This document shows positions 45,460 to 48,258 of a stretch of DNA of 64,000 bases, piece by piece. Location: NCBI GenBank assembly GCA_015709715.1, contig CP054184.1:1535001-1599000 (forward strand), given 5' to 3'. This DNA is from Nitrospira sp. (GTDB lineage Bacteria > Nitrospirota > Nitrospiria > Nitrospirales > Nitrospiraceae). The translations under genes were made by a program, and so were the position numbers. Each line of letters begins with the position of its first letter. Positions within the stretch are counted from its first letter, which is position 1. The notes beneath the pieces are model-generated. The model made no database searches. It saw only the letters and a list, made by a program, of their open reading frames with translations, and was not told where the DNA came from.

Positions 45460-46332
45460 TCAGCGTCCGAGTGCCGTCTTCACCGCATGGCCGATCTCGG
45501 CGGGGTTCTTCACCACACGCACACCCGCAGCCTCCAGGACCTTCATCTTCTCGTTGGCGGTCCCTTTGCCGCCGGAAATGATCGCCCCCGCATGGCCCAT
45601 GCGACGACCGGGGGGTGCCGTGATCCCGGCGATGAAGCTGATCACCGGCTTCTTGACATGCTGCTTGATATATTCCGCAGCCTTTTCTTCGGCATCACCA
45701 CCGATTTCACCGATCATCACAACGGCCTGAGTTTCCGGATCCTTTTCAAACAACGGCAAGACATCCACAAAACCGGTTCCGTTGACAGGATCGCCGCCGA
45801 TTCCCACGCACGTGGTCTCCCCCAAACCGAGGGTGGACAATTGATGGACGGCCTCGTACGTCAAGGTGCCGCTGCGTGAGACGACTCCCACGACCCCGCG
45901 CTTGTGAATGAACCCAGGCATAATGCCGATTTTGGCCTCGTCCACCGTGATCACTCCTGGACAATTCGGACCGATCAGCCTCACATCCCGGCCACGGAGC
46001 GCACGTTTCACCTTGACCATATCGTTGACAGGAATACCTTCCGTGATACAGATAATGAGCTTGATACCCGCGTCGGCAGCCTCCAGAATCGCATCACCGG
46101 CAAACGGCGGCGGCACAAAGATCAGCGAGGTGTCGCACTCCGTTTTCTTCACGGCTTCGACCACGGTATTGAACACGGGAATGCCTTCGACCTCCTGCCC
46201 GGCCTTCCCCGGCGTCACCCCTGCGACCATCTTCGTGCCGTAGGCCTTGCACTGCGTCGCATGGAACGAGCCTTCCTTGCCCGTGATCCCCTGCACCACC
46301 ACCCGCGTGTTCTTATTGACGAGAATGCTCAT
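45460..46332 (-). CDS. sucD: Succinyl-CoA ligase, alpha subunit
   Basis: 290 residues, ATG with AAGGAA upstream. CoA-binding [15 protein letters not shown], then [10 protein letters not shown], and the phospho-His site in [15 protein letters not shown]. In an autotroph using the reductive TCA cycle it makes succinyl-CoA from succinate with ATP. Its N-terminal [15 protein letters not shown] resembles that of aclA here, reflecting common ancestry of the CoA ligase domains. Last gene of the cluster, but unusually split from sucC by 747 bp. Confidence 0.96.
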
Positions 46333-46351
46333 GATTTTCCTTTTGGAGTCT

Positions 46352-46906
46352 CTAAATAAAAGTGAAGAGTTCTTCCAAACGATTCTTCAACCTGATGATG
46401 TCTTCCCACCTCTGAGTTTCCAATACGAATTCTCCACTGTCCTTTTTCACACGAAAATCTCCTGTATCCCTGAACCTTTTAACACGATCAAGTTCTTTTA
46501 GGGGAATCACGATTGTTCGTTTAGCTGATTCCCAGACCTGCACAAGGACACACGTGATAGCGCTGCCATCATGGCCCACCTTCTCAAGCCTCGAAAGCCT
46601 CTCTCTGAGAGGCGGTTCGAATCGATTCCAAGCTTGGTCAGAGTATTCCCTCTTCGGATCAGGAACGAAGACCATCCCAAGGATCGCTCGCTTGTTTCCT
46701 TTGTCAGCGATTCCAAAGAAGATTCTTTTTCTCGGCTGTACGAAGCTGTTTAAATCCCATCCATCCTTAGCTTGGGAAACGAATTCGAGTCCTCTTTCCT
46801 CAGATAACTTCTTAATTTCCCCGAGAACATTTCTGTAATATCGGTCCTCGGGGGGTGAGCATTGATAGAACTTCTCCGAGTTCCATTCATTTCCCCATTT
46901 GCGGCG
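46352..46906 (-). pseudogene. Headless ORF between sucC and sucD
   Basis: The frame is open from 46906, bounded by a TGA inside the adjoining inverted repeat, to 46352, about 184 codons, but has no ATG, GTG or TTG before the ATG at 46675, which would give only 107 residues. The translated part looks like real protein (NEWNSEKFYQCSPPEDRYY, GEIKKLSEERGLEFVSQ, QPRKRIFFGIADKGN, then [16 protein letters not shown]). The first half precedes the only start codon, which suggests a gene that lost its 5' end. It is AT-richer than sucC and sucD. No family was recognised. Confidence 0.5.
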
Positions 46907-47074
46907 TCAGGCTGCCGAGAGCTACCTTGCTGAAGGAGCAGGGCCCCACCGAGGCTCGGCCGAGAGGAAAGCGGAAACTGACCGAGTCCAAGAGGGAATT
47001 TCCGAAGGCTTCCACTCGGCCGAGCCCGGAAGGGTCGCTCCGAGAGGCAGAAAGCGATCGGCAGCCTGACGCCG
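46902..47074. repeat. 173-nt nested inverted-repeat element
   Basis: Perfect 17-bp terminal inverted repeats at 46902-46918 and 47058-47074. Nested inside are GGAGC/GCTCC (46935-46939, 47037-47041), a 12-bp pair GGCTCGGCCGAG/CTCGGCCGAGCC (46953-46964, 47015-47026) and CGGAAA/TTTCCG (46972-46977, 46999-47004). It ends 5 bp from the sucC stop and touches the headless ORF. It could be a MITE-like element or a structured RNA in the sucC-sucD transcript. Confidence 0.7.
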
Positions 47075-47079
47075 TTTCT

Positions 47080-48258
47080 CTACGCTGCCTTGCCGGTCAT
47101 CTTCACAATTTTCTGCGCGGCATCCCACAGATCGTCGGCCACATCCAGCTTTAACCCAGATTGTTGGAGGAGCGACCGGCCTTCTTCGGCATTGGTACCC
47201 TGCAACCGCACGACCAGAGGGACAGCAATGTGCACTTCTTGGGCCGCTTCGATCACGCCGTGCGCAATGCGTTCGCAACGGACGATGCCGCCGAAGATGT
47301 TGATAAAGATTCCTTTGACGTTCGGATCTTTCAAGAGAATGCGAAAACCTGCCGCCACGGTCTCCTTGGTCGCCCCACCGCCGACATCCAGAAAGTTTGC
47401 CGGTTCGCTTCCGGCCAGCTTGATGACGTCCATGGTCGCCATCGCTAAACCCGCACCATTGACCATGCAACCGATGTTGCCGTCAAGTTTCACATAGTTG
47501 AGATTGTTGGCCGTAGCCTCGATTTCCAAGGGATCTTCTTCGTTGAGATCGCGCATCTTTTGCACGTCCTCATGCTTGAAGATTCCGTTGTCGTCGAAAG
47601 AAACCTTCCCGTCCAAGGCCACCAAGGTCTTCTCGTTGGTAATGATCAACGGATTGATCTCGACGAGCGCGGCATTCTTTTCCATGAAGAGTCGGTAGAG
47701 GTTGCCGAGCATCTGTACAAAGGGATTGATGACGGCTGGTTCCATTTGCTGAAGGCCCAAGGCAAAAGCCACGTTCCGGCCGTTGTGCCCTTGAAAGCCC
47801 ACGGCAGGGTCAATTGCCTCCTTGATGATCTTTTCCGGCGTCTTGGCCGCCACCTCTTCGATTTCCATCCCACCCTCGGTGCTAGCGATGAAGGTAGGCC
47901 ATCCTGTGTCACGATCCACTAGGAGGCTCAAGTACAACTCCTTGGCAATATTGGCACCTTCTTCCAGCAGCAAACGATAGACGGTTCGGCCTTTTGGTCC
48001 GGTCTGGTGGGTAACCAAGGTTTTGCCGATCAATTCTTTGGCCAAGCCGGCCACTGCAGCCTTGTCCTTGGTGATCTTGACGCCGCCTGCCTTGCCACGC
48101 CCTCCGGCATGAATTTGCGCCTTGACGACGAATACGGGAGTGTTCAATTGGGTCGCCCATTCGGTCGCCGCTTCGGGAGAGGTGATTTCCTTTCCGCGCG
48201 GCACCGGCACGCCGAATTGCGCGAACAATGACTTGGCCTGAAACTCATGAACGTTCAT
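47080..48258 (-). CDS. sucC: Succinyl-CoA ligase, beta subunit
   Basis: 392 residues. ATP-grasp N-terminus (MNVHEFQAKSLFAQFGVPVPRG, KAQIHAGGRGKAGGVK), metal and nucleotide residues in ALVEINPLII and LDGKVSFDDNG, and the C-terminal GCMVNGAGLAMATMD and INIFGGIVRCE. It pairs with SucD. Transcribed from the frdA side; the usual directly adjacent sucD is displaced by an inserted segment. Confidence 0.96.
   Translation of the reverse strand: MNVHEFQAKSLFAQFGVPVPRGKEITSPEAATEWATQLNTPVFVVKAQIHAGGRGKAGGVKITKDKAAVAGLAKELIGKTLVTHQTGPKGRTVYRLLLEEGANIAKELYLSLLVDRDTGWPTFIASTEGGMEIEEVAAKTPEKIIKEAIDPAVGFQGHNGRNVAFALGLQQMEPAVINPFVQMLGNLYRLFMEKNAALVEINPLIITNEKTLVALDGKVSFDDNGIFKHEDVQKMRDLNEEDPLEIEATANNLNYVKLDGNIGCMVNGAGLAMATMDVIKLAGSEPANFLDVGGGATKETVAAGFRILLKDPNVKGIFINIFGGIVRCERIAHGVIEAAQEVHIAVPLVVRLQGTNAEEGRSLLQQSGLKLDVADDLWDAAQKIVKMTGKAA

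Follow-up and report, generated by a model that had tools for sequence, protein, structure and literature searches.

A covarying family of dispersed structured repeats in Nitrospiraceae, with a member directly behind the sucC stop codon

The 173-nt sequence located between the succinyl-CoA synthetase genes sucC and sucD in the 64,000-nt stretch of Nitrospira sp. DNA analysed here (the window; contig CP054184.1 of assembly GCA_015709715.1) belongs to a dispersed family of structured repeats of ~175 nt that is maintained vertically and was confined to the Nitrospiraceae in the searches conducted. Each copy consists of a conserved core closed by a locus-specific stem of 17–20 bp, the two sides of which change together, and copies tend to sit a few nucleotides behind a stop codon in one orientation to the gene ending there, as a statistical bias. 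We tentatively favour the explanation that this covarying family resembles the REP, ERIC and YPAL repeats and acts on the upstream gene as a hairpin close to its stop codon, a mode of action that we infer. The family was previously unlisted and has no match in Rfam. Bacteria of the Nitrospira type drive nitrite oxidation and complete ammonia oxidation, and the open-licence literature searched offered little on their repeats or RNAs; searches in it for Nitrospira repeats, structured RNAs and noncoding RNAs turned up no account of this hairpin family.

The hairpin at the sucC-sucD junction

The element (46902-47074) forms a single long imperfect hairpin on the + strand of the window, which we use as the model sense and which is opposite to the sucC mRNA. 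Its 17-nt 5′ outer arm (46902-46918, + strand), with a locus-specific sequence, is the perfect complement of the 17-nt 3′ outer arm (47058-47074, + strand), and the arms enclose the conserved core common to the dispersed copies (46919-47057, + strand; alignments A1 and A2, and searches with the core model R1). Within the core, fold and covariation both indicate a central 12-bp helix on the + strand (46953-46964 with 47015-47026), and nested helices of 5 bp (46935-46939 with 47037-47041) and 6 bp (46972-46977 with 46999-47004) can be read from the sequence. All four repeat pairs listed in an earlier, sequence-only reading of this DNA (perfect 17-bp terminal repeats with nested pairs of 5, 12 and 6 bp in 173 nt) are present, and repeat finding in the window recovered the two long arm pairs. 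The apical part (46972-47004, + strand), CGGAAACTGACYGAGTC...GGAATTTCCG, is the most conserved sequence, with invariant alignment columns, and its CY-GA...GA-RG arrangement could allow tandem G.A pairs on the + strand.

Fold prediction, which had been proposed as a check, gave -116.2 kcal/mol for the RNA of 46890-47090 (z = -8.29), and as none of 200 dinucleotide shuffles was as stable (0/200), the stability of the hairpin is far beyond chance. The covariance model matched the window at 46919-47057 with 141 bits (E 2.5e-35, whole-genome search). Rfam 15 at gathering score recognised only tRNA in the window and left the element without a match, and at E values up to 5 there were only sub-threshold chance matches of microRNA and lncRNA type, with nothing credible among them.

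The sucC gene (47080-48258, minus strand; Pfam ATP-grasp_2 and Ligase_CoA) abuts the element with its stop codon at 47080-47082, which places the element 5 nt behind that stop, as had been read from the sequence. The location between sucC and the downstream sucD (45460-46332, minus strand; Pfam CoA_binding and Ligase_CoA) was also correct, but the two genes are not directly joined across the element, as the 747-nt spacer also holds an AT-rich gene-like frame. This 107-aa ORF between element and sucD (46352-46675, minus strand), without a Pfam family above cut-off, represents the C-terminal portion of a gene in the region 46352-46901 (minus strand), whose homologue, a 177-aa ORF, occupies the corresponding position in a related genome (G006; L004:1534-2067; 75% identity over 166 residues). 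On the minus strand, the homologous frame can be followed without a stop to about 46852. An in-phase start as in G006 would span a run of six G (46850-46855), so either a frameshift has occurred there or the gene starts elsewhere.

The spacer between sucC and sucD was 11 nt in 16 of the 30 junctions fetched, -4 to -1 nt in three, 149–169 nt in six, 532–747 nt in three and unmeasurable in two; with a usual spacer of 11 nt versus 747 nt in the window, the junction studied here has been opened. A second palindromic family, with the core GCTCGCGCAACGCGCGG and variable arms, was seen directly after sucC at two other loci (L034 in G001 and L035 in G033), and has up to 81 motif matches per genome in the 16 genomes searched, with five in the window's own genome (G000:C1).

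Covariation and distribution of the family

A search for further copies in the genome and its relatives, as the sequence-only reading had suggested, showed one copy in the own 4.16-Mb genome, both by DNA search (in which the second row was the reverse complement of the element itself) and by covariance model with 18 candidates scored, and a dispersed family elsewhere. DNA searches of 100 relatives gave matches in 31, and the R1 model matched in 97 of 175 Nitrospiraceae genomes; several of these have >10 copies, up to at least 18 per genome, where the counts are lower bounds with 18 candidates scored per genome. Loci L001-L002, the sucC-search loci L033-L062 and several loci representing duplicate places were excluded from the model search. 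A scan of the phylum found matches in 44/295 genomes, all from the same bacterial family among the matches listed, and an exact 22-nt core motif occurred in 94 stretches from named genomes, with all of the 80 matches listed titled Nitrospira, Nitrospiraceae, Nitrospirae or Nitrospirota. A related exact 21-nt motif was absent from the viral contigs scanned, and a phage origin was rejected on this basis.

Copies come as type A (~140 nt) and a type-B variant of ~159 nt with a longer apical hairpin. Two copies (L024 and L026) contain an extra internal hairpin of the ACCCGTTGC or ACCCATTGC type at the same position of the stem, and a similar hairpin was also present in a MITE-like unit of genome G040. 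The element occupies the same intergenic place in four genomes of three genera (L017, L094, L106 and L118), where the start of the downstream gene is, we presume, similar to that of trpC.

In an alignment of 21 copies, compensatory double changes affected 33 of 54 pairs, in 149 cells compared with 49 for shuffles, with all 12 outer-stem pairs tested covarying (12/12), and sliding the partners abolished the signal. When 65 copies were aligned to the model, 29/42 pairs covaried (337 cells versus 88) and 96.5% of the cells were paired, in an alignment that leans toward its own model. The suggestion that the element might be a large structured RNA thus received strong support from covariation of the copies in relatives. 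A single copy combined with a lack of covariation had been named as the outcome that would speak against the sequence-only reading: the single copy is what the own genome contains, while the copies in relatives do covary.

A core of roughly 140 nt is conserved, whereas the outer stem of 17–20 bp varies between loci yet stays complementary. This complementarity of the arms is specific to the locus (mean longest match 9.70 versus 4.71, sd 0.18), and the outer arms belong to the element, since sequence common to unrelated loci generally stops ~16–20 nt outside the core; as exceptions, one group of copies shares a further 80–100 nt with a second hairpin. An origin of the arms by palindromic target duplication was rejected, since their self-complementarity was at chance level (3.90 versus 3.80, sd 0.08), as was their match as direct repeats (4.09 versus 4.07, sd 0.10). 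The far arm of two sucC copies (L098 and L077) runs on as an inverted duplicate of the 3′ end of sucC, a feature that is weaker in L004; we read this as a later extension of the palindrome and not as the general origin of the arms.

Place behind stop codons and possible modes of action

At 57 of 78 independent loci, a gene running opposite to the model strand ended between -10 and 150 nt from the core, compared with 13/78 on the mirror side, and a stop codon was located within 35 nt of the core (about 17 nt of the outer stem) at 31/78 versus 2/78. The raw context count over 111 copies was 75 versus 15 on the mirror side; six of the 117 model matches (two duplicate places and four partial or weak matches) were excluded from the context counts, and genes in the relatives were called by our own ORF and codon score. 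With this heuristic gene caller, 21 of the 78 independent loci had no same-strand stop within 150 nt. Insertion into the sole non-coding gap of a tight operon could also place copies near stop codons, but does not explain their single orientation.

Other palindromes were seen in comparable places. A third family, AGGCTGCTSAAAAAGGC...GCCTTTTTGAGCAGCCT, starts 0–1 nt after the stop codon of a ychF-like gene (L189, L195, L198, L199 and L202), with up to 83 motif matches per genome in the 16 genomes searched and none in the window's genome, and in L189 this repeat directly adjoins a main-element copy that is truncated. In some genera, a shared hairpin of the GACAGGCCGCTTnnAAGCCTGTC type lies 30–60 nt past the far arm (L019, L069, L078, L093, L096, L103, L114 and others); it often has a T-run and is terminator-like.

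On the stop-proximal reading, the long GC-rich hairpin in the mRNA of the upstream gene would begin inside or just beyond the footprint of the terminating ribosome, where it may slow termination or release, form a barrier or processing site at the 3′ end of the mRNA, or both; the E. coli REPs located within 15 nt of a stop codon serve as model for such action. At sucC-sucD, the element breaks the usual 11-nt (or overlapping) junction, and the output of the two genes would no longer be directly coupled. Such a covarying family behind stop codons would provide many natural sites to test whether translation is tuned by hairpins close to the stop, and would reveal how a junction as tightly coupled as sucC-sucD can be pried open, while the locus-specific complementary arms allow upkeep of the palindrome by selection on folding to be tested against template-switch repair.

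The main unexplained result, which speaks against a hairpin acting on the mRNA, is a strand asymmetry in favour of the strand antisense to the upstream mRNA. Among de-replicated copies, mismatches of the G.T kind outnumbered those of the A.C kind by 65 to 24 on the window + strand and by 60 to 34 in the outer arms; for pairs predicted on both strands, the counts on this antisense strand were 69 G.T versus 30 A.C, and the + strand folded better in 71/80 copies. The union of pairs from both strands gave the reverse (A.C 340, exceeding G.T 163), as it is dominated by pairs that the gene strand alone predicts, near-constant wobble pairs among them; only the intersection, core and outer-arm counts favour the + strand, with a model alignment that was itself built on the + strand. 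We regard this as moderate evidence for a past or present constraint on folding of the + strand. A wider interpretation, which we consider unlikely, is a new class of strand-specific elements, large covarying hairpins that have long been retained behind stop codons with their working fold antisense to the preceding gene, and that act through a convergent RNA or as a site of folded single-stranded DNA; on this view, the niche at stop codons is shared by several palindromic families of these bacteria that are unrelated to each other.

An alternative that we regard as doubtful is an old non-autonomous mobile palindrome of MITE-like type without a role for the host, where the hairpin mattered for past mobility and the copies persist passively. 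At some earlier time the family became dispersed, with copies at many unrelated loci, and both the type-B copy inside a 583-bp unit at three near-identical places in G040 and the occupation of the same sucC and ychF-like junctions by other palindromic families fit this alternative. Against it, no target-site duplications were found over 93 loci (4.78 versus 4.73, sd 0.10), where old duplications could have decayed, and the terminal arms lack a fixed sequence common to different loci, so that no transposase could recognise them by sequence. Moreover, 51 of 53 copies had their nearest relative in a different genome, and the core was more identical than 500 nt of adjacent upstream coding DNA in 32/34 ortholog pairs, which were chosen, overlap one another and are not independent. 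Concerted evolution between copies is possible in copy-rich genomes; the window genome holds one copy. The lack of target-site duplications, of a shared terminal sequence and of recent amplification leaves a classical MITE unsupported, and with one copy in its own genome, the element does not bear out the suggestion of a MITE in the sequence-only reading. The G040 unit (L109:1937-2519 and L110:1937-2517) carries its type-B hairpin between terminal repeats of about 26 bp, with 8-bp direct repeats, in three near-identical full copies and one partial copy (89%). At the ychF-like locus, comparison of empty sites gave no clean empty site, as sites lacking the element held other sequences, often palindromic repeats. 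Pairs of type-A and type-B copies on opposite strands suggested the ends of a larger transposon, which was rejected since each copy is a complete hairpin with its own arms, the spacing varies between 95 nt and more than 1 kb, and ten ORFs located within or next to such pairs at seven loci were ordinary or unknown, including GST, PilZ, cytochrome c, MlaD and a YchF-type GTPase.

The strand asymmetry bears directly on two further alternatives. A functional RNA read from the other strand (window +) in the direction of the 3′ end of the gene, and acting as antisense or protein-binding RNA, would account for the G.T excess and the better folding of that strand, and the alignment shows purine-rich internal loops with a possible tandem G.A motif on it; we nevertheless find this quite unlikely, as a scan of 46300-47400 for σ70-like promoters, the one promoter type covered, found none, and conservation past the 5′ arm is poor among sucC orthologs (56–77% over 300 nt). 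Decidedly unlikely is a folded single-stranded DNA that serves as substrate for recombination or transposition, with a logic like that of REP/IS200-type elements or attC and the strand choice reflecting the folded strand: its strand-specific structure, fixed orientation to genes and hairpin with conserved core and variable arms agree with this, whereas recent copies and a shared terminal recombination motif are lacking. The Y1 transposase family PF01797 was detected in 20/30 genomes and undetected in 10/30, including the copy-rich G032, G051, G046 and G213, which is also inconsistent with dependence on a RAYT. Finally, a bidirectional terminator or simple RNase-resistant mRNA end, for which the specific core would be unneeded, matches the very stable hairpin at gene ends and the further hairpin with T-run that follows some copies in the sense of the upstream gene. 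This appears very improbable, with no T-run terminator found at the sucC-sucD locus, copies inside operons such as sucC-sucD, and a nearly invariant core loop that a plain barrier does not need.

Comparison with known repeat systems

A MITE has terminal inverted repeats whose sequence is fixed and common to its copies, unlike the arms of the element, which are complementary within a copy and differ between loci; the copy number of the element is one in the own genome and >10 in several relatives. The 583-bp unit of G040, which we take to be of the 'ISL3' type from the style of its terminal repeats, has its own ~26-bp terminal repeats, and the hairpin is its cargo. Integron attC sites have conserved 7-bp core sites at their ends, unlike the outer arms described here, which share no fixed terminal sequence.

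ERIC (also IRU or RU-1) is a palindrome of about 127 bp that is co-transcribed with its neighbours and has a reported orientation-dependent effect on the stability of upstream mRNA (PMC2229807). It has TA termini and a target duplication, and the element differs from it in its length of 173 nt, its ends (CGGCG...CGCCG) and the absence of a duplication. The YPAL or RU-2 repeat of Yersinia is a 168-bp intergenic palindrome that is not A+T-rich and has termini without TA (PMC2229807), with reported target duplications of 3–26 bp, empty and filled sites and recent mobility. The element is like YPAL in its similar length, long palindrome, intergenic location, non-TA termini and lack of A+T-richness, a likeness judged from the description of YPAL, and differs in that no target duplications or recent mobility were found, with YPAL belonging to a different phylum.

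In E. coli, REPs located no more than 15 nt from a stop codon are reported to cause ribosome stalling and to decrease translation (PMC12306157), and like the REPs and BIMEs covered there the family consists of dispersed intergenic palindromes with a subset close behind stop codons; the 31/78 loci with a stop within about 17 nt of the stem are in such a REP-like position (~15 nt). REPs measure 20–40 nt and have a short terminal tag (PMC3733652), unlike the 173-nt element with its variable ends and no shared tag. A further difference from REPs is that the Y1 (RAYT-type) transposase is missing in several copy-rich genomes and that the arms of the element are locus-specific and covarying. As the element lacks tested defining features of MITE, REP, ERIC, YPAL and attC, it was filed as a new family within the broad kind of dispersed structured intergenic repeats, which we tentatively propose may work like a stop-proximal REP.
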